From positions 1 through 25,816 of IMG/VR virus record IMGVR_UViG_3300050120_000039: a stretch of DNA of 25,816 nucleotides, one strand, 5' to 3'. This document shows, piece after piece, positions 1 through 18,262 of the stretch (within the stretch, counting starts at the first letter, position 1; each line of letters begins with the position of its first letter). This DNA is from a virus. The notes under the pieces are model-generated. The model saw only the letters and a program-made list of their open reading frames with translations, had not been told where the DNA came from and did no database searches. Position numbers and translations under genes: made by a program.

Positions 1-600
1 AGAGGCATCGCCACCAATGGTGATGTTCTGGTTACCTGTGATGAAACCCGCTGTAGAACCCGCAACAACGCGTCCCTTAGCATCAACGGTCACCGAGGTA
101 TAAGTGCTTGCCGCGACTCCCGTGCTCGCCAGGGTGACAACGATATTACCAGCACCATCTGAGGTACCAGAAGCATCACCACTCAAGCTGATTGCAGATC
201 CAGGAATAAAATAAGATGTTCCATTATAGACGCGAAGAACGTGATTTACCGTGTCATACCAAAGATCACCAACAAGAGATCCCGTTGGCTGGGTTGCGGA
301 AATTACTGGACGACCAGCGAGTTCCCAAATAGGAGAAAGCGACGTTCCAGTATTGACACGAAGATTCCCAATTGTCTCATCGTACCAAGTCATGCCCTTT
401 AGGGGCTTTAATGCATTTAGGGCCGTAGAGTTCGCAGCCGCGAAATTCTCCAACATGTTTACGAGATTTTGGTTGAATTTATCCGTAATCGATAGCGCAC
501 CGAAACCAATGAGATCAATTGGCATCTGCGTTGAATCAATTATCGTATCTGTTACGGTAAAAGATCTCGAAGTATCAAATGTGGTGACAATATTGCTCAT
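1..600 (-). CDS. Tail-fibre-like protein, N-terminal part (cut by window edge)
   Basis: The ATG lies at 598-600 and the frame stays open for 200 codons to the left edge, so only the N-terminal part is visible. The translation begins MSNIVTTFDTSRSF. It contains two fibre-type motifs of the kind LWYDTVNHVLRVYNGTSY (about residues 113-130), and a weaker copy near residue 72. These are followed by a low-complexity Gly/Ser/Thr stretch with YTSVTVDAKGRVVAGS (about residues 167-182), a motif common in phage tail fibre and tail collar proteins. It is the most downstream late gene seen here, after the 210-residue structural protein, and a late promoter (GGTAAATA) lies 29 bases upstream. A role as a distal fibre or fibre-attachment protein is inferred from motif and place. 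The receptor-binding end is outside the window, so specificity cannot be judged. Confidence 0.75.
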   Translation of the reverse strand, partial: MSNIVTTFDTSRSFTVTDTIIDSTQMPIDLIGFGALSITDKFNQNLVNMLENFAAANSTALNALKPLKGMTWYDETIGNLRVNTGTSLSPIWELAGRPVISATQPTGSLVGDLWYDTVNHVLRVYNGTSYFIPGSAISLSGDASGTSDGAGNIVVTLASTGVAASTYTSVTVDAKGRVVAGSTAGFITGNQNITIGGDAS

Positions 601-628: not shown

Positions 629-636
629 TATTTACC
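629..636 (-). promoter_or_regulatory. T4-type late promoter GGTAAATA for the fibre gene
   Basis: On the minus strand the 48-base gap between the 210-residue gene and the fibre gene holds GGTAAATA, ending 29 bases before the fibre ATG. It matches the last six bases of the T4 late consensus TATAAATA. It belongs to a set of five such sites in front of minus-strand genes in this window. No shared -35 element is visible. Confidence 0.6.
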
Positions 637-648
637 TTATACACTTTG

Positions 649-1281
649 TTATACGAACATTCTAAATCTAAGCACGTACACCGCTTCGATAATACGATTA
701 GAAGATTTCATGATAGGGCTAAACACAACGTGCGTGATCAATAGATCATCTTGTGTCTTAAGACCAATCTCGCTGAAAACGAATGCCGTGGTATTGATAT
801 TTTGTCCTGATAAAGAGTCAAAAGCTGGCTGAGTGAAAGGCTCATTCTTGCTCAACACACACCGAATCTCGACATCTGAAAACAAAGTTCCATTGATATG
901 CCTGACCGTCATCGAATTCCCCGATGGTGCTCCATTGTTATCGTCAATGACTTCAAAGTATGTTGGAGTATTGAGATCCGCACTACCTGAGGTGTTTGGA
1001 GTAGCATAGGTGATATCACCTAGTGGATCGACAGTGGCACCACCGCTTCCGAAATACATCGAATAGAGTGGTCCATTGGAGCGATGAGCAACAGAACGAG
1101 CAATAAGAATACTCATATGCTCTGGATGAATAGCGTTTCTCTTATCTAGAAGAACAACTCCTTTGGTGTCCTCTTCGTTTTCGTACTGAGTGATTTTAAG
1201 ATGGCCTTCAACCCTAACTTTGATTTCATCACTAAGTTGGGTTCTTGGAAGATCATGTTCATTACGTGTCGGATTACTCAT
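649..1281 (-). CDS. Virion structural protein, probable baseplate or fibre-associated
   Basis: This 210-residue protein sits between the giant virion protein and the fibre gene, in the late orientation. It has no signal peptide or membrane segment. A central segment reads KRNAIHPEHMSILIARS (about residues 47-63), followed by a YFGSGG turn and a Thr/Asn-rich loop. This pattern resembles conserved structural proteins of large T4-like phages, but I cannot assign a T4 gene number. The ATG at 1279-1281 is preceded by GAGGGA at good spacing, and a GATAAATA late promoter ends 22 bases upstream, so the gene can be transcribed alone. A role in linking baseplate and fibres is suggested only by position. 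A T4 gp8/gp9/gp10 counterpart is possible but not shown. Confidence 0.7.
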   Translation of the reverse strand: MSNPTRNEHDLPRTQLSDEIKVRVEGHLKITQYENEEDTKGVVLLDKRNAIHPEHMSILIARSVAHRSNGPLYSMYFGSGGATVDPLGDITYATPNTSGSADLNTPTYFEVIDDNNGAPSGNSMTVRHINGTLFSDVEIRCVLSKNEPFTQPAFDSLSGQNINTTAFVFSEIGLKTQDDLLITHVVFSPIMKSSNRIIEAVYVLRFRMFV

Positions 1282-1302
1282 AAATTTCCCTCATTACCGT
1301 AT

Positions 1303-1310
1303 TATTTATC
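1303..1310 (-). promoter_or_regulatory. T4-type late promoter GATAAATA
   Basis: GATAAATA on the minus strand matches 7 of 8 bases of the T4 late consensus. It overlaps the TGA stop of the giant gene (1309-1311) and ends 22 bases before the ATG of the 210-residue gene. The transcript leader would therefore be very short, leaving just room for the GAGGGA ribosome binding site. Confidence 0.65.
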
Positions 1311-4300
1311 AACTACTAGCTCCAGGGTTTTGCATGATCGCATAGGCGGTTGGATAAGCAATAGCGGCATTACTTGACTCACCACATATGTATGTACAGA
1401 ATGTTGTTCCCAAACCAAAAGGAGGCCATTGTAATACAGGAATAGCAGTTACACTATCCCCCGGAGTGTGTACCAATATATAATTTGTTCCATTGAACAA
1501 GTATACGTTTCCTGTACGACGTGCGAACGTCAATACTCCAACAGCAATCAGACCCATATCAATCCATGTGGTTCCATTCCAATTGTAAATGTGATTGGTC
1601 GTACTATCCAATACACTGATACCAGTTATACGATTATCTTCTATACCAAGACCTGAGTCATAATCCAAGTGTGAAACAAGTAAATCTTCAACTACAATAG
1701 GACTACGATATAGAATAGTCTGTGGAGATGGACCCAAATATGGATTTGAATAATGAACTGTGATTGTGCCATCAGAAGGTGATAGTGTTAGATTTCCTGG
1801 AGCATTATCGACACTCATCAAGTATCCATTGATGGTGATGCCATTACCCCATGGGGATGCCGTGTTCTGCCAGGAAATTGACGTAATCTCAACCTGACCC
1901 ACTGGGGCATTCAAAACCCACGACGCATATATGAATCGAATAACTGCACCAATAATCGTATTGATCGGAGATAATTCAATTACTCTATCACCAAGAATAA
2001 CGTGCATCCAATCAACTCCTTCGACCAATGGAATCCAGCCAGCGCCGTTATTAATCTCGATTAGAGCAATAATTCCCTCGGTATGAGTGCGATAGATGTA
2101 AGACGATGCTCCGATAGTCACCTGTTCGGATACCGGATAAGATATATCCAGCGTGGTGATCGAAGTAGTTGTATCGAATGGATCAGAATCGAATGGAACA
2201 GCATCAAAACCTACTTGATTATCACCAGGGCTTTCTGTTGGTTGTGAGCCAATTGACAAGTAAAACACTCGATCGCCAACATCTGTTGGACCGGTATCGA
2301 ATGGATAGAGATCAAACGGACCTGCATCGAATCCAGAATATCTATTCGAATACGAAGTAGTCACGGCGAGCAATACGGAATCTACTACGGTATATCTGAT
2401 GCGTTCTTCTGCATTTCCCCCATCAAGGGCACCGCAAGTATTTGCACATGACGCCATTTCAGAGCATGGGTTAGCGATATCCAAATCAACAATGAGTCGC
2501 GCCGCCGCGTGTAGATAATCGTCCTGATACGCGGTAAGTGTCGGGTAGAGAGCAAGAACCGAAGATCCCAACGATGGTGCTGGTCCCTCGACAAATCCAC
2601 TAGCCTGATACAGGACAATCGTATATCCCGAAGCTAAAGCATAACTAGACGTTAGTTCAACTGAATTATTACTCGAACTAATGGTGATCGTTATGAGTAA
2701 GCTATCTGCTGTGACGATATTTCCGTCAGAATCAATGATATCATAGCGATGCGCATATAGTTCAGGTTGGTTCTTCGCCACTGCCGTAAATGTCGTCGTG
2801 CTTCCATTAGTGTTGAATGTTCCGAGTGGATACCACGCTTGGCGTCCAAGATCAGGAAGATCCCAAAGTGATTGATCAAAATATCCTAGATCAAAACCGA
2901 AGTAGTCGAAAGCACCATCATCAAGAATATTGCAAGAGAGTCTATCGAATAACAAAGTAATCTTTGCTGTAAAATCATCTGAGATTTGTGGAGCTACTTC
3001 TTCTGGATTTTCTATAGAATATGATACTTCTTCAGAACGAATTTTAGTTCTGAATGGTTTTGTATCTAGTATATTTGCAATAATAGCGTCAGCCTCACTA
3101 GGACGCGTATATAGACTAGTATCGATACTATCAAAAATCTGAACTGTTATGTAACTAGTCTTAAAGAACCAGTCGCATTCTTTGTTTTGCCTTAACATTT
3201 CTCGTAGTAGAGCAAATATAACTTGGTTTTGTTGTAGTTGATCCAATAGAGAGATAATGCCAAGCCATGTACTACGGAACACAGAACCATTCGTCGATAT
3301 ATTTGAATTGATCGTAAATGTCCAGTTATCGATTCCAACTTCGTTCCAAGTAGTTCCGTCGTATTCGTATGTGGCTGCTACTTGGTCCCCGGTCCAGATA
3401 TCATCTCGATCGGATTGTAGTACGCGAACAACATCACCAGCCGCGTATAGCTGGGCGCTCAATCTCTGATCACGTTCCGCATAGCTGACTACGGTATCAA
3501 AAATAGTCGCGTCCTCATATCCAGAGAGACGATATTCTGCTCTCTGCCAAAATCCAGTCGAATTGCTCGTCGATAGTTCATCAGAAAGGATGAATGTATT
3601 TGTAATAGTAGTATCGGTGCTAAATTCTATGGTCTTTACTGTTATGTTGACCGCGTTCGTATACACACTAATGGCGGTTGGAACATCAGAGAATACCGTT
3701 TGAGCAGGAAGATACAGACTACCGATTTGTTCACCTAGCGAAAGGAAACTACTTGGAACACTGTTGCCGAATTGATCCAACTTAGACATCGAATCGATGA
3801 GCTTATTAGTAATGATGGTCGCTGGATAGTTGTTCTGATCATTCTCACTTATGAGCGTCCATTCCTCGTGTGTCTCCAAGGTGCGTTGGTCGATTAGAAT
3901 TTCAATTGCGTAACCGTCTTGAATGTTAGTGCCATCGGTAAAGACAATCATGCTCGTGGCATCGGCTGGAGCGAACCAAGACAATCCGAATCCCGTGGGA
4001 TCATCTAGGCGATTTTCAACATCCGCCGTCGCCATTCCCTTTACGTAATTCAACTTCGTGTTAGAACGAACCCAAAAATAAAAAGTCGCTATTGGCTGAT
4101 TGAATTGATTTAATGTGTCAATCTCAGTATAAGAGAAGTCATCCCCATCTGGGCGTGCAGTGCCACTTAGAACATCAACGCCACTCAAGGTAGCGACATA
4201 GGAATCGTATTGATCTGGCGAAACTGGAGATCGTACCCATTCATAAACCTCAACCTGCCCGATGACGATTTTTATATCGCCCGTCGCGGGGGTTACTGGT

Positions 4301-7300
4301 TGGTCCTGGATCTGATACGAGATGGTAAACGTGTCGATTACAGTAATGACTATGTTGGTGCCATTATAAGAGGATTGATCCGCATCAGTGACGTTTACGA
4401 TATCGCCGGAAGACAAACCATGGGCCACTGGCTCCTTAGTAATAGGGTTAAGAGTAGCCACTGTGACCACACCAGACGCATACGTGGCTGTGGCTCTGAA
4501 GTAGAACTGATTACCCCACTCACGTGCTCTTATGAGAGGATCTGAAATTCCATGATAGTCGAGATATGAAAGATTGGTAGTGTCCCACCAGAGCTTCCCT
4601 ACGTCGTTTTCTCCCCATAGGGTAATCCCAGGAGGAGCCGCGCTAGGTCCATCTGAGTAATTAGCAGGATCGTACGGGCCAACTATATCCAAGAGCGAGA
4701 ATGAATTCGGTTCATTAATATTCTGGGACGGGTCCCAATGAAAATTCTGCTCGATCGTGTTGTTATTATCAAGGGTGTTAAAAATTTGCAGGTAGAAGCG
4801 ATAATCAGCAACATCGGGGATTCCCGTGTTATTGACTGGGAAGGTGAGATTGGCAGCGCCATCGCTTGCTTTCTTTGGACCGATGATCCACCGAGGATTA
4901 TTCTCATTCGGCGTTCTTGCAAGACCTGGAATTTGTAGAATTGTGCTCCCAGGAGTTACCGTATTCGTAAACTGAACGACCTGTTTTGAATCGGAAAAAT
5001 CGTCTTTGAATATATTAAACTGAACGAAGTCCATACGGGTGTCACCGAAGGTAGCAACCTTCCACGCCCAGTCTTCATTAATGAAGACATTCTCAGTACC
5101 CAGACGAGTTCCGCGAATAAACGCAGTTTGTGGACGGATCGTGCCCTGAGTAGCCCGCAACGCGCGATCATATTTTACTTGGTTACGTGCGTCAGCATTG
5201 ATGGTGTCCATGTATGACTTTGGAGTATAATCATAGAGATTTTGCGCCTGAGATCTTAAAAATGAGTCATCTGGTGGATTATTGGAGTCGTAGAAACGAG
5301 TAATATTCATTGCCTGTTTCTCAAAATTAGGTATTAGAGCATTACCATTGAGAATAAAACCGGGAGCTTCAAATCTTCCGTTCCAATTTGTTGTTCTATA
5401 AGTATCAACCTTCAATGTCTTATGATACAAAGAAATAACAGGATCATAAATCAGATCATTAAACTTTGTAACATTAGGAAAGAATACCGCATGCTGAATT
5501 TCAGTTAAGTATAGTCGAAGACCAAAAATAACTGAACTCCCGAGTGTTGATACGGAAATAGTATCTTCGATCCGACTAATCATAACTTGATCCGAATCTA
5601 TTGGCTGACTGTTCTGATCTAGAACGCCATAAGATCCGTTCTGAATTGATTCAATATTAAGAATTTGCCCGAAGCTACTGCTAAATTTACCACCACCACT
5701 CATGGGGGAGTAATAAAACACCGATGAATTGAAATTCTTTACTCTTTTATATTTCGGGTCAGATAGTTGAATAGTCCAGGTGGCAAATTTCTTGGAACCC
5801 AACAACCAGTCAAAAGTTTCTCCAGAAATGAGATCCGTCGCATCAAATACCCATCCCATAGTATTCAAAAATCTTCCATACCCGATGAAGAAATTGATTA
5901 CGTCGTTTGGTGTTTCGAAATAGTGTCCATATTCAATAGTGTCGTATTGACCAGATGCAGTTGAGTTATAAGAAAACTGTCTGTTTTGTATAACGAAAGT
6001 CCTCATCTGAGTCGATGGGTTTGATTGCGTCGTTGATACGCTGACAATCACGGTCATACCAGCGGTTATTTGAACATTAGGATTGATGGTGAATGTCTTT
6101 GGTGATGTTACTGTAATATAACGTGGATCTATTTTGTACCCATTGATAAGAATGCCTAGTTGTGCAATGTCGTTCGCACCAACCGGTAGAGTGATGCTGG
6201 ATACCGTGAAATTACTCTGTTGGTCTGTAGCTGTGATTACTTCCCTAAGTTCTACCTGCCCACCAACCAAAGGAGCCACACCCGCCTCAATGACAAAATA
6301 TGGATGAAACGGGTCATATCCGAAAACTCGATATCCAGAGCCATCAGCTTGAACGGCGACGCCGGAACAAAAACGCTCCTGGGTCACGGGTGCCTGATAA
6401 AGAAGAACATTAACATCTTCGAAAGGAATTTCCTTACCGGAAATTGTTTCTATGATAGTGCTGTTCTTGTTTATAAAACCAGTTGTTCTCCACCCCAGTG
6501 TTGGAATCGTATTGACTAGAGTATTACCAAAATCATTTGTTGGATCAGCACCAATAAGAACCAAGGCTTCGCTCACCCAGGCATTAAGACCAATGTTCTG
6601 TGTGGTCACACCATTGACTACCTGTAAATGAACTGGAGAGTCTGTGATTTTCTCACGCGTCAAAGTACTCTTGCTGACCACATGTGGTGCGTTCCATAAT
6701 CTAAACGTTCCAGTATCACCGATATTCTGACGATAATCATTCCAGAGCGTATCAACGAACACCCCTGGCTTCATTAGAAAACCAGCCAGCGCGACGGCAA
6801 AACTATAGACGGCTGAATTGACGAACATCTGTTCGGCTGGAGATCCGTCACCATAGATAAATTCATCGTTGATCATCGTTCCATCTAGAGTGGTTGAATC
6901 AACGATTCCTAGTGCGATTGGATCGAGTAGTTCACCATTAAAATCTACGGGAATAGGAGCGATCATCGCGACATCGGGACTAATGGTCCCAATGGTGTCA
7001 ATTATACCGGCTTTGAGTTGAACCCACATATTATGTGAATTCGAATATCGAGGGGTTCCATCACTATACGTGCTCGTAGGCACATAAGTGGTTCTCCACC
7101 ATGTTGGTTCGATTGAATATCCTTGGATCTCCCAAGGATGAGAATGTGGACGGATCGTTCCATAGAGACGCTTATACATGCCAAGATAATGGCCCTCAAC
7201 ACCCGCACTTGTATAATTCCAGGTGAATGGATCATTAGGATCGAATGCGTTGTTTGTCATATCGATGTTGCGATTGACACTCCACCGCTCAAATTCACGC

Positions 7301-9828
7301 CGCATAATCTGTCTAAATTCTTGCCAAGAATAATCAAAATCCACAGTATTATTGAATCGACTAATCTTTAGGATCGCTGTGTTGTTGACGATGTAATATT
7401 CGCCATTGGAGAGATTCAAAAATATGTCATCGAGTTGAAATGCTCTAATCAGCCATTCAGTTCCACTCCATAGGGCGTATGAGCGCTGGGCCAAGGAGGC
7501 AACGGCATAGTTTGCCGTGGGGATAGCTATCGTGTTGAAGTCGAGAACAACATCATTGACCGGAGGAGAAGTCACTACGGGGGTGAAATTCCCAAAGTAC
7601 TTCTTAAGGAAGAATGCGGCTGATCCGTGGCGCGTAGAAAAGGATGTGGTTTCTGTGCGTCGATATACCGGAACCGTATTGAAGAACCTATTCTGAAGCT
7701 CTAACCAAACGTGATCGCGATCATCCCCCTGGGCGGGAACTATAAAACCATCATGTCCACGTAGAGAAATCGTTCCGTCACGGTCGATAAACTTCTCAGG
7801 AACAAATGTTGGTGATGCTCCAATTCGAGCAGAACTACTCGGAATGAAAATTGGTTGTGGCGTACTATCCACAACGTCTACTGTGCTACCAACGATACGG
7901 GTTTCTACATAGGTCCCCATGTCTGAATAATAGAATGGAAAATCACTAGTTCTTCCTATGAAGAGAGAACTTAGGATAATGTCTGCGGCTTGTTGTACAG
8001 TACAAACGAGATTACCACCCGTGGTGCTTAGAATATTAGTATTCCAAAGTTGATCCATTTTCGTCTGGAACTTAAACAGAATTCTATTATATTCCCGAGA
8101 CATAGCCCTGATGACATCGGGCATGCTTAAGCGACTGTCTTGCACGCTTAGCATAGCACGAAGTAATCCATCTTCTGGATCAATGATAACCGATCCAATA
8201 GTTGGATCTTGTTCTGTAAATCTATAGTTGCTTAAGCCGAGAGAGTTACCATCAAAATTTGGTTGTGATCCAATGATACTAGTAAGATGGTTTAGTATTG
8301 TCGATCTTGATGGATCGGTAAGAATTAAATGATCCGAGTTAGATACCAACGTCCTAGACTCTGGGAATAGATTTTGTGAATCCGGCGTCTCCGTTAGCAA
8401 TTCAAAAGATTTAGACCATACTGATCTGCATAATCCAGTTTGCCCATCACGGAACATACGATAGCCGAGCACGTTAGCGTGTGTTGCACTTTCTAACGTA
8501 AGATCGAATTGAATATCTCCAGTTGAAGCATGGTTTAGAGCCAACCCGATCACCGGGTCGATAGTTCCCGATCCCGCTATTGAGTATCCAAAAATTGTTG
8601 TTGATTGAGAAGGGACTAATAATATTTCCTGCGCTGTTATATCAAACGCATATAGGTTGAACTGAGGAGCATCATTTCGAAACGCCTTGGTGTCACCCGA
8701 AAAACTCTCAATACCGGACCAGAATTCTACGATTGGGCGCACCGCTTGGTTCTGCCCATTGTTTTGCGAAACAGTATCCTGGTCTACCACGGACAAATCT
8801 TCAAAATTTCTCCACCAATTTGTCGTGGTCCAAGGATCACTCAGCGAGGATAATTCTCTGACATCATAGATTGCAGTATTGTCGGCGGGAACCCCGGATG
8901 GCCCAGCCTGACACGTATAAACTAGAGAATTCCAATTAGCACCATCGTATTGAACAAGACGACGGAACGGAACAATCGTAGGATCTTCCCATATCATTCC
9001 CAACCGAGGCATTGTTGGCGCTTCCGTCGATACAACGACCGGAGTCGCTATCCAGCGGCCAGCCGCTTCTTTATAAACGAAAACAAGAGGACGATTGAAA
9101 TTAGGACCAGTAGAACCAAAATAGATGTAATCTCCTTCATTGTATGTGGTCAGATCTACCGAGGAGGGAGAATCCTCAACCCCGAAAATAACAACATTCC
9201 ACTGAGTTCCCGTGTACACGTAGATAACGCGATCGGTCGTTGTGGTCAATTCGATCAACGTCCCTGGAGTTGTTGTGCTTGGTAGAAAATTATCAGTAAT
9301 AATTACAGAGCGCTGAACTAGTGCACCGGAGACAACCTCATATAAAACCGTCTGAGATCCCTGAATCTCTTTGGTTACATATTCACCATTAACATCAGCG
9401 CTACCGGGACCGGTCCAGAAATATCGACTGAAATTGATGTGCTTGTCATAATCGATCGGGAGGGTCCAAGAGTAATAGGGGACTGCGCAGAGACGATTCT
9501 GATCATTCGTCAATCCACCGTTCGCTTGGATCAAATTAATCAAATCGTCGAAAAACGCGCCTTTGGAGAAAAGCCCAGAGTTTGGGTCAACGTACACGGC
9601 ACCAATGGTTAGTTGGTTTTTATCCCGCTGGGCATCGCCAGAACGAATCAATGGAGTGCGCGTGAGATCATCCGCCGAAAGAAGATCACCCGTGCCGATA
9701 TAACCGGTGAGGAAGTCGGCTTGCTCTGGCTCAAATAGGACATCATCGAGAAGAAGATATTCTCGATCGTTCTGTGGTGTTTTTAGATTATCGGGAACAA
9801 ATTCCCACGCGCGGCGCTGAAGTGACAT
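1309..9828 (-). CDS. Giant virion protein (2839 residues), gp7-position baseplate/tail protein
   Basis: This single uninterrupted frame of 8.5 kb fills a third of the window. It follows gp6 (after two small genes), where T4 keeps baseplate wedge gene 7, but T4 gp7 is only about 1030 residues. The N-terminus (residues 116-140) carries YYSWTLPIDYDKHINFSRYF, an aromatic motif I associate with giant structural proteins of large marine and T4-like phages. At least six short Y-x-G-T-x-W-type motifs are scattered near residues 204, 296, 788, 2156, 2750 and 2780, the kind seen in fibre and adsorption proteins. Asp-Phe-rich repeats (PFDxxPFDT) lie near residues 2500-2555, and a related segment near 2310. 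No signal peptide or membrane segment is visible. The ATG at 9826-9828 follows TTAGGATT, and a CCTAAATA late promoter lies upstream. Virion location is well supported. The exact role (wedge, tail needle or fibre base) is inference. Confidence 0.75.
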   Translation of the reverse strand: MSLQRRAWEFVPDNLKTPQNDREYLLLDDVLFEPEQADFLTGYIGTGDLLSADDLTRTPLIRSGDAQRDKNQLTIGAVYVDPNSGLFSKGAFFDDLINLIQANGGLTNDQNRLCAVPYYSWTLPIDYDKHINFSRYFWTGPGSADVNGEYVTKEIQGSQTVLYEVVSGALVQRSVIITDNFLPSTTTPGTLIELTTTTDRVIYVYTGTQWNVVIFGVEDSPSSVDLTTYNEGDYIYFGSTGPNFNRPLVFVYKEAAGRWIATPVVVSTEAPTMPRLGMIWEDPTIVPFRRLVQYDGANWNSLVYTCQAGPSGVPADNTAIYDVRELSSLSDPWTTTNWWRNFEDLSVVDQDTVSQNNGQNQAVRPIVEFWSGIESFSGDTKAFRNDAPQFNLYAFDITAQEILLVPSQSTTIFGYSIAGSGTIDPVIGLALNHASTGDIQFDLTLESATHANVLGYRMFRDGQTGLCRSVWSKSFELLTETPDSQNLFPESRTLVSNSDHLILTDPSRSTILNHLTSIIGSQPNFDGNSLGLSNYRFTEQDPTIGSVIIDPEDGLLRAMLSVQDSRLSMPDVIRAMSREYNRILFKFQTKMDQLWNTNILSTTGGNLVCTVQQAADIILSSLFIGRTSDFPFYYSDMGTYVETRIVGSTVDVVDSTPQPIFIPSSSARIGASPTFVPEKFIDRDGTISLRGHDGFIVPAQGDDRDHVWLELQNRFFNTVPVYRRTETTSFSTRHGSAAFFLKKYFGNFTPVVTSPPVNDVVLDFNTIAIPTANYAVASLAQRSYALWSGTEWLIRAFQLDDIFLNLSNGEYYIVNNTAILKISRFNNTVDFDYSWQEFRQIMRREFERWSVNRNIDMTNNAFDPNDPFTWNYTSAGVEGHYLGMYKRLYGTIRPHSHPWEIQGYSIEPTWWRTTYVPTSTYSDGTPRYSNSHNMWVQLKAGIIDTIGTISPDVAMIAPIPVDFNGELLDPIALGIVDSTTLDGTMINDEFIYGDGSPAEQMFVNSAVYSFAVALAGFLMKPGVFVDTLWNDYRQNIGDTGTFRLWNAPHVVSKSTLTREKITDSPVHLQVVNGVTTQNIGLNAWVSEALVLIGADPTNDFGNTLVNTIPTLGWRTTGFINKNSTIIETISGKEIPFEDVNVLLYQAPVTQERFCSGVAVQADGSGYRVFGYDPFHPYFVIEAGVAPLVGGQVELREVITATDQQSNFTVSSITLPVGANDIAQLGILINGYKIDPRYITVTSPKTFTINPNVQITAGMTVIVSVSTTQSNPSTQMRTFVIQNRQFSYNSTASGQYDTIEYGHYFETPNDVINFFIGYGRFLNTMGWVFDATDLISGETFDWLLGSKKFATWTIQLSDPKYKRVKNFNSSVFYYSPMSGGGKFSSSFGQILNIESIQNGSYGVLDQNSQPIDSDQVMISRIEDTISVSTLGSSVIFGLRLYLTEIQHAVFFPNVTKFNDLIYDPVISLYHKTLKVDTYRTTNWNGRFEAPGFILNGNALIPNFEKQAMNITRFYDSNNPPDDSFLRSQAQNLYDYTPKSYMDTINADARNQVKYDRALRATQGTIRPQTAFIRGTRLGTENVFINEDWAWKVATFGDTRMDFVQFNIFKDDFSDSKQVVQFTNTVTPGSTILQIPGLARTPNENNPRWIIGPKKASDGAANLTFPVNNTGIPDVADYRFYLQIFNTLDNNNTIEQNFHWDPSQNINEPNSFSLLDIVGPYDPANYSDGPSAAPPGITLWGENDVGKLWWDTTNLSYLDYHGISDPLIRAREWGNQFYFRATATYASGVVTVATLNPITKEPVAHGLSSGDIVNVTDADQSSYNGTNIVITVIDTFTISYQIQDQPVTPATGDIKIVIGQVEVYEWVRSPVSPDQYDSYVATLSGVDVLSGTARPDGDDFSYTEIDTLNQFNQPIATFYFWVRSNTKLNYVKGMATADVENRLDDPTGFGLSWFAPADATSMIVFTDGTNIQDGYAIEILIDQRTLETHEEWTLISENDQNNYPATIITNKLIDSMSKLDQFGNSVPSSFLSLGEQIGSLYLPAQTVFSDVPTAISVYTNAVNITVKTIEFSTDTTITNTFILSDELSTSNSTGFWQRAEYRLSGYEDATIFDTVVSYAERDQRLSAQLYAAGDVVRVLQSDRDDIWTGDQVAATYEYDGTTWNEVGIDNWTFTINSNISTNGSVFRSTWLGIISLLDQLQQNQVIFALLREMLRQNKECDWFFKTSYITVQIFDSIDTSLYTRPSEADAIIANILDTKPFRTKIRSEEVSYSIENPEEVAPQISDDFTAKITLLFDRLSCNILDDGAFDYFGFDLGYFDQSLWDLPDLGRQAWYPLGTFNTNGSTTTFTAVAKNQPELYAHRYDIIDSDGNIVTADSLLITITISSSNNSVELTSSYALASGYTIVLYQASGFVEGPAPSLGSSVLALYPTLTAYQDDYLHAAARLIVDLDIANPCSEMASCANTCGALDGGNAEERIRYTVVDSVLLAVTTSYSNRYSGFDAGPFDLYPFDTGPTDVGDRVFYLSIGSQPTESPGDNQVGFDAVPFDSDPFDTTTSITTLDISYPVSEQVTIGASSYIYRTHTEGIIALIEINNGAGWIPLVEGVDWMHVILGDRVIELSPINTIIGAVIRFIYASWVLNAPVGQVEITSISWQNTASPWGNGITINGYLMSVDNAPGNLTLSPSDGTITVHYSNPYLGPSPQTILYRSPIVVEDLLVSHLDYDSGLGIEDNRITGISVLDSTTNHIYNWNGTTWIDMGLIAVGVLTFARRTGNVYLFNGTNYILVHTPGDSVTAIPVLQWPPFGLGTTFCTYICGESSNAAIAYPTAYAIMQNPGASS
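2171..2334. repeat. Pair of 41-base imperfect direct repeats coding for Phe-Asp-rich motifs
   Basis: Two copies, 2171-2211 and 2294-2334, match at 31 of 41 positions by my count. On the minus strand they encode FDAGPFDLYPFDTG and FDAVPFDSDPFDT within the giant virion protein. A related segment FDYFGFDLGYFD lies about 600 bases away, near 2880-2920. The conservation looks like a duplicated protein module, not a DNA element. Confidence 0.6.
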
Positions 9829-9852
9829 TCATGAATCCTAATTCGTTCTGGG

Positions 9853-9860
9853 TATTTAGG
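9853..9860 (-). promoter_or_regulatory. T4-type late promoter CCTAAATA for the giant virion gene
   Basis: CCTAAATA on the minus strand ends 25 bases before the ATG of the giant gene. The same octamer stands in front of the 90-residue gene (11031-11038). It keeps the TAAATA part of the T4 late consensus. It lies in the divergent region 9829-9961, back to back with a plus-strand early promoter. Confidence 0.65.
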
Positions 9861-9890
9861 ATTTGAGATTCATGAACTTATACAAACGTT

Positions 9891-9925
9891 TTCTTCTTGA
9901 CGAAGAATTACAACCATGCTAGAAG
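9891..9925 (+). promoter_or_regulatory. Sigma70-type early promoter with palindromic -35 region
   Basis: The -35 TTGACG (9897-9902) and -10 TAGAAG (9920-9925) are separated by 17 bases, with a TGC extended -10. The -35 is embedded in TTCTTC-TTGAC-GAAGAA (9891-9907), a 6-base inverted repeat around a 5-base centre. The same 17 bases occur unchanged in the promoter at 16782-16816. It drives the small plus-strand block 9962-10568. The inverted repeat could be an operator, but that is inference. Confidence 0.7.
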
Positions 9926-9961
9926 TGGGTATGAACGCACTCTTGCTCCGTGGAGAATATT

Positions 9962-10225
9962 TTGAAATCGAAAATCGCCGCAGGGGTTTCTTTTTGCATC
10001 ATGATCGCCGTCATTGTTTATGGCGGCTGGATCTATGCAATGAAGCGAGTAGATGCCGCGATGGACGCAGCGACGATCCAGAAGGTCTGTGTGGAATCCT
10101 GGAAGGGGAAGGCGTTTACGGTAAAGACCACCCAGGAGTTGAACAACATGGTGGAGATTGCAGTAATCCTGCATACATTTTGTTCTCGTTCCGTCATGCT
10201 GACCGCTGCATTCGAGAAGGAGTAA
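9962..10225 (+). CDS. Small single-pass membrane protein, early block
   Basis: I place the start at TTG 9962, because GGAGA (9952-9956) sits five bases before it. The frame can also be opened at GTG 9950, which has no ribosome binding site. The 87-residue product has a short basic start (Lys-Ser-Lys) and a hydrophobic segment of about 20 residues (GVSFCIMIAVIVYGGWIY), then a soluble helical part with two cysteines. This suggests an inner-membrane protein with its N-terminus inside. It is the first gene behind the 9891-9925 promoter and is followed three bases later by the next gene. Early membrane proteins of phages often act in host takeover, superinfection exclusion or lysis control, but nothing here points to one of these. 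No family recognised. Confidence 0.6.
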   Translation: MKSKIAAGVSFCIMIAVIVYGGWIYAMKRVDAAMDAATIQKVCVESWKGKAFTVKTTQELNNMVEIAVILHTFCSRSVMLTAAFEKE

Positions 10226-10228
10226 ATC

Positions 10229-10453
10229 ATGGAATTTGAAATCATTGGCGGCAATGGCACAGATTGGACGGACACTCCACGAGCTTTGACTACGGAAGAA
10301 ATGATCCGTATGCGCGAGGCCGTCCAAGATGGCGTGTTGTCGAGCGGGAGACTGGTGGGTATTAAACTTTACCGCGAACTCACTAGGGCGACTTTGGCTG
10401 CTGCCGTGCGCTTCGTGGATGAATTGCGCAAGCAGGAGAACACCCATGAGTAA
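10229..10453 (+). CDS. Small early protein of unknown function (74 residues)
   Basis: The ATG at 10229 follows AAGGAG with good spacing. The gene begins three bases after the membrane protein gene and overlaps the next start by eight bases, so the three form one operon. The product starts MEFEIIGGNGTDW and continues as an amphipathic helical region rich in Glu, Arg and Leu (about residues 22-70). It has no cysteines, signal peptide or membrane segment. I recognise no family. Small helical early proteins of phages commonly bind host enzymes, but nothing in the sequence names a target. Confidence 0.55.
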   Translation: MEFEIIGGNGTDWTDTPRALTTEEMIRMREAVQDGVLSSGRLVGIKLYRELTRATLAAAVRFVDELRKQENTHE

Positions 10454-10568
10454 ATCAATTTGGGAAGTTAAGTCAACCGTCGAGTCCAGCTATTATATTT
10501 GGGCCGAAACTGCCGATGACGCGCTAATGCATAGTGATATGCCAGTGCCGCTAGCTCTTCCGTCCTAG
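10446..10568 (+). CDS. Tiny early protein (40 residues)
   Basis: The ATG at 10446 overlaps the end of the 74-residue gene, with the purine-rich AGGAGAA (10435-10441) as ribosome binding site. The product begins MSKSIWEVKSTVESSYYIW and has an acidic middle (ETADDAL). This looks like the start of a short beta-strand/helix fold of the kind in which small phage proteins display a modified surface, but no family is clear. Its TAG stop shares the palindrome CTAG (10565-10568) with the stop of the convergent minus gene. Translational coupling supports it. The short length keeps confidence moderate, and it could be a C-terminally truncated relic. Confidence 0.45.
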   Translation: MSKSIWEVKSTVESSYYIWAETADDALMHSDMPVPLALPS

Positions 10569-10726
10569 TCATTCTCTACTCGCTTGGTTTTCTTATTAAC
10601 TATTCGCATTTCGCCGGTTCCGGTGTTCCATTCGATATAGCTAGCAGCTTTCTTAGGCATACCTGCTAAGAGAATCTTTTTGATCTCTTCCCATCTAGAC
10701 ATGAATAAGTTGGTCTGGACGGTCAT
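10565..10726 (-). CDS. Tiny basic late-strand protein (53 residues)
   Basis: The frame starts at ATG 10724-10726, which overlaps the TAA stop of the 90-residue gene as TAATG. The same coupling joins the hub and spike genes in this window. The product begins MTVQTNLFMSRWEEIKKILL and ends with a Lys/Arg-rich tail (VNKKTKRVEND). An internal ATG at 10700-10702 is a possible alternative start (45 residues). It would be cotranscribed with the 90-residue gene from the late promoter at 11031. No family recognised. Its stop codon overlaps the convergent plus-strand gene within CTAG. Confidence 0.5.
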   Translation of the reverse strand: MTVQTNLFMSRWEEIKKILLAGMPKKAASYIEWNTGTGEMRIVNKKTKRVEND

Positions 10727-10998
10727 TACTCAGCCTTTGAACTAACCGGCTCGCCCTGCTGATGGACGATCTGGGCGAGATCGAAACCACGGTCAACACG
10801 CTTGAACTGCAAATTCACTTTCTCTAGGAATTCAATATCTTCGATAAGATGGCATGCCTCAGGCAGGCGATGCCCCTCTAGGATGAGACGAATACCCCCT
10901 GGAACCGCCTGTGCAGATTCAATCAACACGCCAAGCTTGTTCACTCGAAGAAGCTCTTCTAGGGTCTTGTAGTCGAGTTCGATATACGCTTTCTTCAT
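10726..10998 (-). CDS. Small late-strand protein of unknown function (90 residues)
   Basis: The ATG at 10996-10998 is preceded by AGAAGGAT at good spacing, and a CCTAAATA late promoter lies 33 bases upstream. The product begins MKKAYIELDYKTLEELLRV. It shows alternating strands and helices (strand near residues 3-8, helix near 11-19, strand near 23-40 with a PGGIRLILEG turn, then a helix), without cysteine or membrane segment. The compact alpha/beta pattern and late expression could fit a small virion or assembly protein between gp6 and the giant protein. A regulatory role is equally open. I recognise no family. Confidence 0.6.
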   Translation of the reverse strand: MKKAYIELDYKTLEELLRVNKLGVLIESAQAVPGGIRLILEGHRLPEACHLIEDIEFLEKVNLQFKRVDRGFDLAQIVHQQGEPVSSKAE

Positions 10999-11030
10999 AA
11001 TTTTAATCCTTCTGATTTAACACTCAGACA

Positions 11031-11038
11031 TATTTAGG
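11031..11038 (-). promoter_or_regulatory. T4-type late promoter CCTAAATA
   Basis: CCTAAATA on the minus strand lies in the 51-base gap after gp6 and ends 33 bases before the 90-residue gene. The octamer is identical to the one before the giant gene. The weak GC-rich inverted repeat CCAGTGCTGG (11040-11049) lies immediately upstream, but has no T-run. Confidence 0.6.
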
Positions 11039-11049
11039 CCAGCACTGGA

Positions 11050-14000
11050 TTAGCTGCTAAATATTCGAAGCTCAGAATCGCTAAAACTGTCTACTATGAC
11101 AACATCAGAAGCCACCGCGACGGAGATGAATAGCTGATCCGGCTCCGTCTGAATTTGGAACAAACGACCAAACGATTGTGTTGTGTCCACGGGAACAACG
11201 ACAATGGACTGAACATCCGGGGCTAGCATTCTATGGATATACGCCAATAGTTCAGTCAGGTAGAATGACTCGCCAAAATCCCAATTCGACACCGCGAAAT
11301 AATTATCGATCGTGCTGAGGATTTGTAGAACCAAATCATTTTCTGATAGCAAAGATCCACTTGATTGGATGACTTTAAATGTCCCCTGAAGATCTAATGG
11401 GGCGCGAGATCCAAATAGAGTCTTAAATCTAGCTGGGTAGTAAATGATACTATCGGACTCTGCCTTGAAGTTATCAAAGTCTGCGAACTGAAGGCGAAGA
11501 TCCTCTGGGGTCGATGGGACTGGCTCATCTTCTGTTGCGCCGTTCTGGAAGATCCAATTCGTGTACGCCTCATAGAACGTGCTCGTTAGAATGAAGCAAT
11601 CCATAATGTTGCTGATGCTTGGATCAATACGATTTGCATCCGGGGCATAATGGGACCACGTGAATGACAAATCATCGCGACCAATCTCAAAACGATAGAG
11701 CGTTTGATCCGAAGCAGTCCCCCATAGTCCAGATGTGCCATTAGCGACGATCCAGAGGCCCGTGGTGACATCATAGTGAATATCCCCGTCTGCACTAGCG
11801 CCGATCGAACCACCACTCACAGGACCGCCAAACGCTGATAGCGCGTACGTCCCTGCTGGACTAGTCGTATCATTGATGGCAAGCCATCTCGTTGCTCCGT
11901 TCTCATCAATCTTCTGCCATAGCACAAGATCAGTCACCCCATCCATGAGGACGAGATCCTTGAACAAGAATGGCTCATCATAATTGCCCACACTTTGGGT
12001 ATCGGCGGGAATGACGAACAATCCAGTTGGATTTACATATCCATCATCGCTGTAGAGAAGATCTTCAACAAACCAGATAGCGTCCTTACCCAAATAGGTG
12101 ACTAGACCTGATGGCAACGTAGTCAGTGTGGACTGTGTGATCATGGGATTGAACTGTCCACCCACCGAGGCCGCAATGACGAACACACTGATCGCGGCTC
12201 CATTGGATGGAGCGGATACGAAGTGAATCTGGTTCCCGTTCGTGATCGAATAAGCTGGAACGGTTGAATAAGTAGCCTCCTTAAGCACACCGCTAACGAA
12301 GACCATAACCTGACCTTCAACTAAGGATCGCAGACCAGTCATCGTAAACGTCGTGGTTGTTCCATCTCCCGTGAAGGTGTTCCATTTCGTCTTAGAGAAG
12401 TATGCTGAACGTGCCGCATAAATCAATACGACTGCACTATTCGCGGGTGCTGATACTAGAGTTACGCGATCGGTTGACGCGGTATGTGTGCCCACGGTAT
12501 AGGTGGGATTTTGCACAACACCATTCACGGCAACCAAGACAGTGTTCGTGGTCTGATTTAGCGCATTGAGATCGAACTGAGTAGTTGCCCCATCACCAAC
12601 ATAAGTGGTCACGACGAAGCTTGGGCTATCGATACCATCAACCCAGTAGATTTCTGCTCTTGCGTTATTCGCCGGGGCAGATGTGAAATTGAGCTTAGAA
12701 GCGGTGCTTGTTAGGCCAACGTTGAAATCAATGCCTGGGGTCTTCATAACCCCGGTGACGAATACAAAAGAATTCGCTTGGTTTATGTGGGTCGCCGTAA
12801 GGGGGAATGAAGTCGCTGTTCCAGTACCGATGACCTGAGCCACCGAGGGAGCCGCATAGACGACATCGTTTCCATAATGGAGTCGGATATCAGCATTCAA
12901 CGCGGGTGCTGTGAAGAACACAACACTGTCTCCGGAGGGAGATGAATTGATAGTGAAATCATTCAAATATGATTGAAGTGCGCCATTTACCTCAACCACC
13001 AACATCATTGTATTGATCGGACTGACTGAGGTATTGAAGTTGGTTCTTGCGTTGTCACCCACATATTGAATGGTAGAACTACCATCATTGGTTGATACGA
13101 TAGTGTTTAGACCACGACGATTAAGTGAATCTCGACTTTCGTTTTGTGCTAGAATGGCCACATTGTCTGAGACTGATCGACCAGTTACTGGATCTACGAC
13201 GGGATCATTCGAAGCGAAGTAGAAACTAATATCACGGGCGGATTCAAAGAATACCCCAAGCCCTCGATCAATAATTTCCCACTGATCGGCTTGGTCTCCA
13301 CCAGGAACGAACTCCATGTAGAACATCCAAGAAGCATCGAGATATCCACCCGTCGTATCACCCTGATTGGCAAGAGAAAAATCGCTTGTCTTATCAAGAT
13401 TGTTATAGGTGATTATCTGCCAGCCCTGAGTGATTTGGTTCCAAGAAACACCAAAATCTAATTTCTGAACGATCGCAGCAACAATAGCGGTATCTTCGGT
13501 CACCACGAATTCCGTACGTAGTGGTGGCATGACAGAAATGATCTTAGAACCATTTGGGACAATCGTTCTAAGAATAATTCCATCCGCCGCTGTACCCGCG
13601 TTTACGATTTTTTCTACTGCCGCAACGCTACCGAGTGGAGTATTGATTCGAACAACGGCATTTGGCGCAAGATAGAAAAGATTATCTGAAGTTGAGGCAT
13701 ACGTACCTACAGATTGTGGTGTGCTCGATCGATCAATATTTCCACGACCATATGCCCCAATGGTAGAAGTCTGTGACCAGATAGCATTACCAGTAACGTA
13801 TAATTCATTATAAGAATTATAGTAGAGAATATTCTTGTCTTCTTTACGAATCAATGGACGAATCGTAGTATCATGTAATGATGCTGCTGGTAATTGTGTT
13901 AAATCCGCTAAGACGAATTGTGCTGATAAAGTCTTTGATTGATAAAGACGACCATCATTAGCGTATAGATTGACATTAGAATACAATCCCGTTGGATCTG

Positions 14001-15399
14001 ACAACTTAGCATAAGCGGAATGACCGGAAAAAGTTCTATTAACAGTCTTCACTTTAATAATAGCATTATCCTTGAGGAAGAAACTGTTGTAGTCTCTACC
14101 AGTAATCATGCGATTTTGTGAATACGCAACTTTGTTGGCTCTTGTACGAATACTTTGATTGGTGTCAGAAGCAGCAGCATTTACTATATTTGTCTGTAGA
14201 GAATACTTCAGTGTAATATAATAGAGTTGATTATTCGACACATATGGTAGGGTCACTACGTTATTGGTGATCGCATCTGGGGTAATAAACTGTGGACTTG
14301 CGGAGACTGTACGGAACCAGAAGCGGAATTTTCCTAGTGGGATTTGACCGAAATTCCCATCTCCGAAACGCACAACGACACGATCATCAGTTAGGGTATC
14401 GATTTCATATATCGTGCCAATAGTGCTTGGAAGAGTATTGAATGCAACCGACTCTCCAAATACGGTATCAACGAGAGTCCAGACGGCTAACACATTCCCG
14501 TTACCGTCGAGTTGTTCTACGAACACGTCATCGTTGGAAATGGATGCGGTGTTGATGATAAAGGCACGATTTATCACTGTGGTGGTAAAATCAACATCCT
14601 GGAACGCCAGAGTTCCTTGCTTGATCGGAAGAAAGAACCCAGATCCCGGAGAACCATTGCCTTTTCCGTCTGACTTATAGAACAGTGAGAATATGTTGGT
14701 CGGATTTGGAGTTAACTCGTCGTAGGCTCCAGATGTCTCGTCGAGATTTGAGTTGTATATTTCGAATCCAAGAGATGAACCGGCAACCGAGGCGGTGAAT
14801 GGATAAACGCCTGAGCTAGGAGCAACTGAATTTAATCTATATTGGGTTACTTTAGACCCACTGCTTGTAAATTGATTGATCGGCTTGCCAAATGGATTGC
14901 GAACTTGAAATGCTGAGTTCAGAATAAGAATGAATTGTTCATACCAATCTTGATTATTAGAACTGTTCCAAACAATTTCTTTGTTCTGCAATAGGGTGTT
15001 TGAAGAATCCGTGATTGCTTCATTTGTCTTGATCGATACGATCTTGACATCACCGCTAGCGCCGGTTGCTCGATTGACCTTATAAGCGATGTTATAAGCA
15101 AGACGAAGAAGGGACTCACGACGTTCAGCCGTCGCGAGGAAATTTTCCCGAGTATTGAGATCGACACGGAATGCGATATTCTGGCTAAGCCACGCTAGAA
15201 TTTCAACCTTCATGACGAATTCTGAAGAAGCGATCCAGTCGTTAAAACTATCTGGGTAGTTTGTTTGAATATAGTTTACCAACGCTGCAACAATTGTATC
15301 GAAATCTGCCGCTCTAAAATCTACATTTTGTAGAGCTTCATAAATTCTGATCCAATCTTCACTAATAAAAAGCGTGTTTTGTCTTGCGATTGTTGTCAT
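11050..15399 (-). CDS. 6: Baseplate wedge protein gp6, enlarged
   Basis: The first 130 residues match the T4 gp6 pattern closely: VDFRAADFDTIVAALVNYI, then YPDSFNDWIASSEFVMK and FRVDLNTRENFLATAERRES. Around residues 420-500 a second conserved stretch follows (TRANKVAYSQNRMITGRDY). In T4, gp6 dimers form the ring that holds the baseplate wedges together. The protein is 1449 residues against 660 in T4. The extra length includes four tandem domains of about 70 residues (roughly 776-1075) and a C-terminal part with DLQGTFKVIQ and YLTELLAYIHRML motifs. The ATG abuts the TAA of gp25 (TAAATG), so the two genes are coupled and share the late promoter at 15832. The family assignment is firm. The role of the inserted repeats is unknown. 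Confidence 0.9.
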   Translation of the reverse strand: MTTIARQNTLFISEDWIRIYEALQNVDFRAADFDTIVAALVNYIQTNYPDSFNDWIASSEFVMKVEILAWLSQNIAFRVDLNTRENFLATAERRESLLRLAYNIAYKVNRATGASGDVKIVSIKTNEAITDSSNTLLQNKEIVWNSSNNQDWYEQFILILNSAFQVRNPFGKPINQFTSSGSKVTQYRLNSVAPSSGVYPFTASVAGSSLGFEIYNSNLDETSGAYDELTPNPTNIFSLFYKSDGKGNGSPGSGFFLPIKQGTLAFQDVDFTTTVINRAFIINTASISNDDVFVEQLDGNGNVLAVWTLVDTVFGESVAFNTLPSTIGTIYEIDTLTDDRVVVRFGDGNFGQIPLGKFRFWFRTVSASPQFITPDAITNNVVTLPYVSNNQLYYITLKYSLQTNIVNAAASDTNQSIRTRANKVAYSQNRMITGRDYNSFFLKDNAIIKVKTVNRTFSGHSAYAKLSDPTGLYSNVNLYANDGRLYQSKTLSAQFVLADLTQLPAASLHDTTIRPLIRKEDKNILYYNSYNELYVTGNAIWSQTSTIGAYGRGNIDRSSTPQSVGTYASTSDNLFYLAPNAVVRINTPLGSVAAVEKIVNAGTAADGIILRTIVPNGSKIISVMPPLRTEFVVTEDTAIVAAIVQKLDFGVSWNQITQGWQIITYNNLDKTSDFSLANQGDTTGGYLDASWMFYMEFVPGGDQADQWEIIDRGLGVFFESARDISFYFASNDPVVDPVTGRSVSDNVAILAQNESRDSLNRRGLNTIVSTNDGSSTIQYVGDNARTNFNTSVSPINTMMLVVEVNGALQSYLNDFTINSSPSGDSVVFFTAPALNADIRLHYGNDVVYAAPSVAQVIGTGTATSFPLTATHINQANSFVFVTGVMKTPGIDFNVGLTSTASKLNFTSAPANNARAEIYWVDGIDSPSFVVTTYVGDGATTQFDLNALNQTTNTVLVAVNGVVQNPTYTVGTHTASTDRVTLVSAPANSAVVLIYAARSAYFSKTKWNTFTGDGTTTTFTMTGLRSLVEGQVMVFVSGVLKEATYSTVPAYSITNGNQIHFVSAPSNGAAISVFVIAASVGGQFNPMITQSTLTTLPSGLVTYLGKDAIWFVEDLLYSDDGYVNPTGLFVIPADTQSVGNYDEPFLFKDLVLMDGVTDLVLWQKIDENGATRWLAINDTTSPAGTYALSAFGGPVSGGSIGASADGDIHYDVTTGLWIVANGTSGLWGTASDQTLYRFEIGRDDLSFTWSHYAPDANRIDPSISNIMDCFILTSTFYEAYTNWIFQNGATEDEPVPSTPEDLRLQFADFDNFKAESDSIIYYPARFKTLFGSRAPLDLQGTFKVIQSSGSLLSENDLVLQILSTIDNYFAVSNWDFGESFYLTELLAYIHRMLAPDVQSIVVVPVDTTQSFGRLFQIQTEPDQLFISVAVASDVVIVDSFSDSELRIFSS
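12173..13070 (-). repeat. Four tandem ~70-residue domains inside gp6
   Basis: Each copy begins with a G-[DT]-x-x-x-T-x-F motif (VGDNARTNF, IGTGTATSF, VGDGATTQF, TGDGTTTTF). It passes through a V-x-V-x-G-V/A strand (VEVNGALQ, VFVTGVMK, VAVNGVVQ, VFVSGVLK) and ends with an F/L-x-[ST]-A-P-x-[NL] turn (FFTAPAL, FTSAPAN, LVSAPAN, FVSAPSN). The copies follow each other with short linkers. The divergence shows an old protein-level duplication. Such beta-sandwich repeats are seen in phage tail and fibre proteins. A role as outward-facing decoration or fibre dock is inference. Confidence 0.75.
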
Positions 15400-15774
15400 T
15401 TAACTTGCCCGTTGGGTAAAGGTGAACGAAATCCACTCTGTTATATCTAGTTCTATGTAATTCAAACTGACGCTCCCAGTAATAGAATGGGCGTCTGGAT
15501 CAAGTACAACATTAACATCTACTAATGATACTCTAGGATCATTACCTACTATTCGAGTTAGATCATCCGTAACTAATTTTTCTGTTCGATCATCGAACAG
15601 ATCCCAACAAAGATCCCAAATGATTGATCCATAGGTAGGACGACGGACACGATCACCCAGGCGGCAATTGAATTCATTCACAAGGTCAATTCGCACGAGA
15701 TTAACGTTATAAACCGCTGTGTTAACGGAATTTTTATTAAGCGTAGAATATCCTCGATAAATTGGAAGTGCCAT
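15400..15774 (-). CDS. 25: Baseplate wedge protein gp25
   Basis: At 124 residues the length matches the gp25/GPW family. The conserved family pattern is visible: LVNEFNCRLGDRVRRPTYGS (about residues 32-51), where the RxGxRxxxPxYGS motif is diagnostic, then a helix region, and a C-terminal beta-strand region (VSLNYIEL). In T4 gp25 is a central wedge component that contacts the sheath. The gene is first in a two-gene late unit with gp6. A TATAAATA promoter lies 58 bases upstream, and a hairpin lies in the leader. The ribosome binding site is GAGAGA, about ten bases before the ATG. Older annotations call the family lysozyme-like, but no catalytic residues support that. Confidence 0.9.
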   Translation of the reverse strand: MALPIYRGYSTLNKNSVNTAVYNVNLVRIDLVNEFNCRLGDRVRRPTYGSIIWDLCWDLFDDRTEKLVTDDLTRIVGNDPRVSLVDVNVVLDPDAHSITGSVSLNYIELDITEWISFTFTQRAS

Positions 15775-15796
15775 TCAGATGGAATCTCTCACATAA

Positions 15797-15823
15797 AACC
15801 CATAGGAGATCATCCCATGGGTT
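15797..15823 (-). other. Hairpin in the gp25 mRNA leader
   Basis: AACCCAT (15797-15803) pairs with ATGGGTT (15817-15823), and GGA/TCC extend the stem around a 5-base loop. On the plus strand one position is an A-C mismatch. On the minus strand the same position is a G-U pair, giving an 11-pair continuous stem in the gp25 transcript. TTTT follows the stem on the minus strand, which is too short to call a confident terminator. The site lies between the late promoter (15832) and the gp25 ribosome binding site. It could stabilise or attenuate the late message. Confidence 0.5.
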
Positions 15824-15831
15824 ATCCGTCT

Positions 15832-15839
15832 TATTTATA
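15832..15839 (-). promoter_or_regulatory. T4 late promoter, exact consensus TATAAATA, for gp25-gp6
   Basis: All eight bases of the T4 late consensus are present on the minus strand, 58 bases before the gp25 ATG. The site lies in the divergent gap of 105 bases between gp25 and the phage sigma factor gene. In T4 this box is read by a phage sigma (gp55) with the sliding clamp as activator. Here the likely reader is the adjacent sigma factor, but this is inference. Confidence 0.8.
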
Positions 15840-15879
15840 CCTTCCATAGTGTTAATTTCGTAAGAGGTTGAATGTATCT

Positions 15880-16779: not shown

Positions 16780-16781
16780 TA

Positions 16782-16816
16782 TTCTTCTTGACGAAGAAAT
16801 TGTGATCTGGTACAAA
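16782..16816 (+). promoter_or_regulatory. Sigma70-type early promoter with palindromic -35 region
   Basis: TTGACG (16788-16793) and TACAAA (16811-16816) are 17 bases apart, with TGG as extended -10. The core TTCTTCTTGACGAAGAA (16782-16798) is identical over 17 bases to that at 9891-9907. It starts three bases after the sigma factor stop codon and drives the long early operon 16848-21640. Confidence 0.7.
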
Positions 16817-16847
16817 TACGAAAATGGTAGTACGATAGGAGAATAAC

Positions 16848-17150
16848 GTGGCAACAGAGGCATTTGCGAAGGTCATCGGGGATACGTGTGGGCGGCTTAA
16901 TATCGAAGCTAGCTCGCTGTATCATCTCGCTGAGTCGTTCCATGATACCGGTAACGAAGTGATGTATAATACGCTTACCAAGATGGCGCGGCGTATTGAC
17001 GTTCTCTCGACTACCTTGCATACCGCGCATGGTGCCGATGTGACCGCATATATCCAGGGCGTCGAGCAGGGTTCTCGGAACGTCCTTGCAGCGGCGCTCG
17101 CGGGGATCGAGGTTGGGCGTGGTGGCGGCGTGCACGAGACGAATAGCTGA
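16848..17150 (+). CDS. Early protein of unknown function (100 residues)
   Basis: The start is GTG 16848, preceded by AGGAGA at good spacing, and this is the first gene behind the 16782-16816 promoter. The product (MATEAFAKVIGDTCGRL at its start) is predicted by eye to be almost wholly helical, with Ala- and Leu-rich amphipathic stretches at about residues 1-35, 38-60 and 65-88, and a Gly-rich end. It has one cysteine and no membrane segment. I recognise no family. Being first in the early operon, it would be among the first phage proteins made. Confidence 0.65.
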   Translation: MATEAFAKVIGDTCGRLNIEASSLYHLAESFHDTGNEVMYNTLTKMARRIDVLSTTLHTAHGADVTAYIQGVEQGSRNVLAAALAGIEVGRGGGVHETNS

Positions 17151-17161
17151 TAGGAATACAC

Positions 17162-18261: not shown

Positions 18262-18262
18262 G

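Follow-up and report, generated by a model that had tools for sequence, protein, structure and literature searches.

TAAATA boxes ahead of late operons in a T4-related jumbo myovirus fragment: probable late promoters of the T4 type, reduced in their core

The IMG/VR virus record IMGVR_UViG_3300050120_000039 (positions 1 to 25,816; hereafter the window) is a 25.8-kb fragment of a T4-related jumbo myovirus, and its minus strand holds exactly five copies of the hexamer TAAATA, one ahead of every late-operon start that is visible, five in all. We consider it highly probable (roughly 0.92) that these boxes are late promoters of the T4 type, with a shortened core and no -35 element, read by gp55, the T4 late sigma factor. 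Host RNA polymerase carrying a phage-encoded gp55 would recognize TAAATA as a -10-like box, without a -35 element, and would initiate about 6 nt downstream of it; one box would serve each late operon, namely gp25-gp6, a 90-residue gene, a giant virion gene, a 210-residue gene, and a fiber gene, units that we take to be late from gene function and homology. An earlier reading made from the letters of the window (the sequence-only reading) had placed these five sites at 629, 1303, 9853, 11031, and 15832, with none elsewhere on the strand; both statements hold, as do the octamers it quoted and its remark that a box precedes nearly every late unit, which is true of five of the five unit starts visible. 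The distances it gave to the ATG (29, 22, 25, 33, and 58) agree as position differences; the bases lying between box and ATG are listed here with each copy of the hexamer.

629-634, minus strand: candidate late box GGTAAATA ahead of the fiber gene, 28 bases to the ATG
1303-1308, minus strand: candidate late box GATAAATA ahead of the 210-residue gene, 21 bases to the ATG
9853-9858, minus strand: candidate late box CCTAAATA ahead of the giant 2839-residue gene, 24 bases to the ATG
11031-11036, minus strand: candidate late box CCTAAATA ahead of the 90-residue gene, 32 bases to the ATG
15832-15837, minus strand: candidate late box ahead of gp25, with the full octamer TATAAATA at 15832-15839, 57 bases to the ATG
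11058-11063, plus strand: the sole plus-strand TAAATA, within the 3' end of gp6; no gene follows it on the plus strand, and it is probably not a promoter

Taking both strands together, TAAATA is seen 6 times in the window against 16 expected from dinucleotide shuffles. The zone within 70 bp upstream of gene starts makes up 2% of the minus strand, yet it holds all five sites. No hexamer but TAAATA is shared by the five leaders; leader shuffles put the joint chance of its presence in all five at 1.3e-5, and any hexamer at all was present in five leaders in 3 of 2000 shuffles. Inside the minus-strand genes, codon-preserving synonymous shuffles predict 5.5 copies in sense and 6.7 in antisense orientation, and the window has 0 (P = 0.0045) and 1 (P = 0.0065), respectively; these are small counts, and ATAAAT, TATAAT, and TAAATT are not depleted by the same measure. 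The sequence-only reading had asked whether TAAATA might be equally frequent inside genes, which it is not. Intergenic DNA is AT-rich and chance alone places TAAATA in a given leader in 4 to 35% of shuffles, which is what speaks for the boxes being intergenic coincidences; this explanation is nonetheless extremely improbable given the joint chance and the depletion within genes, together with the top-ranked enrichment in three relatives and the retention of the box before orthologous genes described below.

Because the window is a fragment, the genome-wide test was run on three complete relatives, the Sinorhizobium phage Phosso (49% GC), the Agrobacterium phage Atu_ph07, and the Pseudomonas phage PA5oct, in which open reading frames (ORFs) were predicted by a simple script with the longest ATG as the start. 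The gp6-like protein of the window matches these three phages and the RaK2/GAP32/121Q group at 33 to 37% by tblastn. TAAATA was found 10 to 50 bp upstream of ORFs 66 times in Phosso (3.7 expected), 87 times in Atu_ph07 (11.7 expected), and 58 times in PA5oct (16.5 expected), ranking first among all hexamers in each genome; this upstream enrichment, which the sequence-only reading had proposed as a check, supports its T4-like interpretation. By the annotated genes, the Phosso boxes lie 20 nt before gp25, 23 nt before the gene after the giant gene (600 bp, at the counterpart position of the 210-residue gene of the window), and 28 nt before the next, and the box precedes gp25 by 33 nt in Atu_ph07 and 23 nt in PA5oct. 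Sense copies within genes are depleted in Atu_ph07 (60 versus 148 expected) and PA5oct (151 versus 204) in codon-preserving shuffles, with a small sense depletion in T4 as well, and the complement of TAAATA shows the strongest in-gene depletion among the words tried in Atu_ph07. Counting TATAAATA by itself gave no signal, since the octamer is no commoner in the relatives than its reversed control; the signal is carried by the position of the box and not by its count. No informative column was seen from -40 to -3 relative to the TAAATA start in any of the three relatives, in line with the absence of a common -35 element in the sequence-only reading (the window has too few boxes for such a test). 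In all three, the sixth base after the box, which is the T4 +1 position, is enriched in A. In the Phosso genome (L006-L029), CTGTTA/TGTTAG and TTGACA/TTGACT are likewise enriched upstream of ORFs and are probably other promoter classes.

The two bases ahead of the core were said to vary freely, a claim that stands for -13 and goes a little too far for -12, where T is avoided. In Phosso, position -12 is A in 57%, G in 21%, C in 19%, and T in 3% of boxes; across 17 sites of the window's clade, several of them mutually homologous, the counts are A7 G7 C2 T1 with -13 free, and A, C, and G are all present at -12 among the boxes of the window contig. TA at -13/-12 occurs in 16 of 27 comparable sites in T4, in 7 of 63 in Phosso, in 2 of 46 in PA5oct, and in 1 of 5 in the window, and it is also rare in Atu_ph07.

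Close relatives of the window were not found by a viral-contig scan with its single gp6 sequence; a scan with a five-sequence gp6 alignment gave 80 loci, and a sigma factor gene beside gp25 gave further contigs. The gp6 of one contig, L070, is 52% identical to that of the window. TAAATA lies 54 to 69 nt before gp25 (57 in the window) in L070/L153, L151, L152, L154, L155, and L156, with a second box 26 nt before gp25 in L070/L153 and L154; these contigs are not all independent, L153 and L070 being one contig and L154 almost identical to it. The giant gene of L152 has its box 28 bases before the ATG. More widely, 60 of 68 distinct gp25/gp6 leaders of IMG/VR homologues contain TAAATA, versus 6 to 32 for nine other AT-rich words. 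Those clade contigs that reach far enough, L070, L152, L155, and L156, encode gp55 (PHROG 12791, 3.5e-42 for L070), and in each of them a structural gene divergent from gp55 has its own box 19 to 23 nt before the ATG. By this synteny, the gp55 gene of the window phage would be expected 3 to 4 kb beyond the right contig end. The boxes, their enrichment in relatives, their conservation in the clade, and the nearby gp55 in that clade together point to T4-type late promoters, and a single core of 6 bp would thus be enough to recognize a gp55-type late program in a clade of uncultured jumbo phages. It would also offer a rule for finding late operons in viral metagenomes: TAAATA before an ORF and rare within genes. 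An odd detail of L070 is that the contig-end reading frame at 13440-13478 gives VSYTHLTLPTKA, which resembles a sequencing-adapter residue in the assembly.

Several points weigh against this interpretation. The in-gene depletion in the window comes from the small counts given above, and in the genes of Phosso a number of AT-rich words are similarly depleted, so that the effect there is not specific to TAAATA. The full TATAAATA is present in only one of the five window boxes. The 25.8-kb contig has no gene for gp55, gp33, or gp45, and it is from sequence that we identify the boxes as promoters. Finally, a different, RpoH-like sigma factor gene is also encoded in the contig, and it is for this reason that gp55 as the reader of the boxes is something we infer:

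15880-16779, plus strand: RpoH-like sigma factor gene (Sigma70_r2 and r4), ATG at 15880 with an alternative TTG at 15868, divergent from the gp25 late box

Regions 2 and 4 are both present in the protein (Pfam PF04542 and PF04545, above cut-off), and its best NCBIfam matches are sigma-32 models (4e-48). It resembles RpoH (sigma-32) in these respects and differs in that its score, 164.5 bits, is about half of the curated RpoH equivalog cut-off of 323.1; it is RpoH-like and is not filed here as RpoH. The protein is 42% identical to its copy in L070 (8628-9494), and the gene is conserved divergently between gp25 and the gp5-lysozyme gene in the window, L070/L153, L151, L152, and L154-L156. For phage CBB, a second sigma factor is on record in which regions 2, 3, and 4 are present (PMC5259590). 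This sigma factor could itself read the boxes in place of gp55, since its gene is in the contig and stands divergently beside the gp25 late box in every contig found with it. However, Phosso, Atu_ph07, and PA5oct use the box and gave no tblastn match to the RpoH-like sigma, which makes it an unlikely reader; moreover, the protein keeps region 4, which leads one to expect a -35 element where the relatives show none, and the close relatives that carry it also have gp55. We therefore hold this alternative to be improbable, a small chance beside recognition by gp55. No excess of sigma-32-type promoters over shuffles was found before the plus-strand genes of the window.

Boxes of this kind have precedents. 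The T4 late box lies at -13 to -6 relative to the start (PMC1524935); the late motif of Aeh1 is CTAAATA, and most T4-like phages show little conservation at -13 (PMC1524935, PMC2988020); S-PM2 has the late box NATAAATA (PMC2984593), and CBB and GAP32 have an ATAAATA late motif before structural genes (PMC5259590). With these forms already published, the window boxes add to a known type, and the novelty implied by the sequence-only reading is smaller than it suggested. Compared with T4, in which TATAAATA is served by gp55, gp33, and gp45, the window shares the TAAATA core, the lack of a -35 element, and the short distance to late genes, and its relatives share gp55 and an A-enriched +1; it differs in having only TAAATA left of the element (-13 is free, and -12 is A, G, or C) and in the presence of the second, RpoH-like sigma. 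The full TATAAATA does not define the wider family, as Aeh1, S-PM2, RB49, and KVP40 relax one or both of -13 and -12. Aeh1 and S-PM2 share the core and, like the window, are relaxed at the first positions of the box (PMC1524935, PMC2988020, PMC2984593), but Aeh1 keeps C and S-PM2 keeps A at -12, whereas the window has A, C, and G. CBB and GAP32 belong to the same wider jumbo-phage group by gp6 and gp55 homology and carry the box before structural genes (PMC5259590), but -12 is less restricted in the window clade.

The spacing between box and gene takes an unusual form in some uncultured relatives. Among more distant IMG/VR contigs (the gp25 leaders of L071-L149), the box lies 3 to 8 nt before the gp25 ATG in 45 of 60 distinct leaders, and the next Met in those gp25 genes is typically about 130 residues downstream. 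Across 79 loci, counted without gene calls and with 40 open codons after the ATG, TAAATA-N4-ATG occurs 24 times, TAAATA-N5-ATG 26 times, and N3 and N6 once each, most of the N4/N5 counts being the same gp25 site in related phages. A single 257-kb contig, G002 (L116, IMGVR_UViG_3300023175_000005), has 13 different genes with TAAATA 4 to 5 nt before the ATG, where about 0.2 are expected (the background being about 0.1 per position). Shine-Dalgarno-like words stand ahead of 8% of these 13 boxed genes versus 54% of the other genes of G002, and TAAATA is the one hexamer not of Shine-Dalgarno type among the top words 4 to 5 nt before open ATGs (16 versus 1.9). In one boxed gene of G002, the motif GGFDPLHSGH, which we take to be nucleotidyltransferase-like, starts at residue 9 and leaves little room for a later start. 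Phosso, Atu_ph07, PA5oct, T4, and the window clade do not show the 4- to 5-nt peak.

A box at the place of a Shine-Dalgarno sequence could be a translation or RNA-processing signal and not a promoter, and it is this placement in some uncultured relatives that favors the idea. We give it next to no weight: boxes in the window clade, Phosso, and Atu_ph07 are mostly 19 to 69 nt away, too far off to act in translation, and their spacing varies; moreover, TAAATA is the T4 late core, with A enriched at the T4 +1 position. If the box instead works as a late promoter in the manner of T4, the mRNAs of these relatives would begin on the AUG or at most one base from it. It appears fairly likely, from the spacing and the scarcity of Shine-Dalgarno-like words, that transcription starts on the A of the start codon (within a base) and that the late mRNAs are leaderless and lack a Shine-Dalgarno sequence. 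The late transcription and translation start signals would then be fused in one short element, TAAATA-N4/5-ATG, and virion genes would be independent of Shine-Dalgarno recognition. The literature that we searched, with partial coverage, did not describe leaderless late mRNAs for any T4-like phage. Late promoters could not be predicted in pelagimyophages in one survey (PMC7029224); the leaderless arrangement, if true, would be one possible reason for that failure, should the contigs having it, presumably of marine origin, be akin to pelagimyophages.

The genes of the window that belong to the late units, and the minus-strand genes to their right, are as follows.

1-600, minus strand: N-terminal part of a tail-fiber-like gene, cut by the contig end (weak tail-fiber PHROG matches)
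649-1281, minus strand: 210-residue gene (PHROG 11259, E 3e-48, a family without assigned function)
1309-9828, minus strand: giant structural gene, 2839 aa, at the same position as the giant virion gene of Phosso, Atu_ph07, and PA5oct
10726-10998, minus strand: 90-residue ORF with a box ahead and no family match
11050-15399, minus strand: gp6-like baseplate wedge subunit, without its own box (PHROG 10646, E 1e-259; tblastn to Phosso, Atu_ph07, PA5oct, and RaK2)
15400-15774, minus strand: gp25, a baseplate wedge subunit whose gene opens the gp25-gp6 unit (PHROG baseplate wedge 4e-8; the Pfam GPW_gp25 match, 2.6e-4, falls short of its cut-off)
21637-25793, minus strand: gp5-lysozyme (21637-23982; Phage_lysozyme 3e-30) and the gene upstream, with L070 homologues in the same order

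The last of these is a sixth late unit (gp27-like/gp5) that starts 23 bp from the contig end, so that the unit start lies at or beyond that end. At 11030-11064, an 8-bp inverted repeat (ATATTTAG...CTAAATAT), made up of the box of the 90-residue gene and the plus-strand TAAATA, spans the gp6 stop codon. Between the gp25 box and the gp25 ATG, at 15784-15822 on the minus strand, an 11-bp stem-loop is followed by UUUU in a terminator- or leader-hairpin-like orientation; an attenuator in this leader was considered and is not claimed, as the stem reaches -21 kcal/mol with a z of only -1.7 versus shuffles and the clade leaders align poorly. Sigma-70-like promoters and terminators showed no excess over shuffles at positions 9700-25816 of the window. 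Between gp6 and the giant gene, L152 encodes (3728-4645, minus strand) a protein of 305 aa whose N-terminus is of the secretion type and which has an NMT1-like (solute-binding) match (4.5e-18). A block of about 4.7 kb with small plus-strand ORFs and about 50% GC (16848-21519) separates the sigma factor gene from gp5-lysozyme in the window; the two genes abut in related contigs, without the block, which is probably an insertion. Within it, at 19051-19779 on the plus strand, lies the gene for a 242-aa protein with a C-terminal phosphoribosylanthranilate isomerase match (Pfam PRAI 2.9e-5, narrowly past the cut-off), which is uncommon in a phage.

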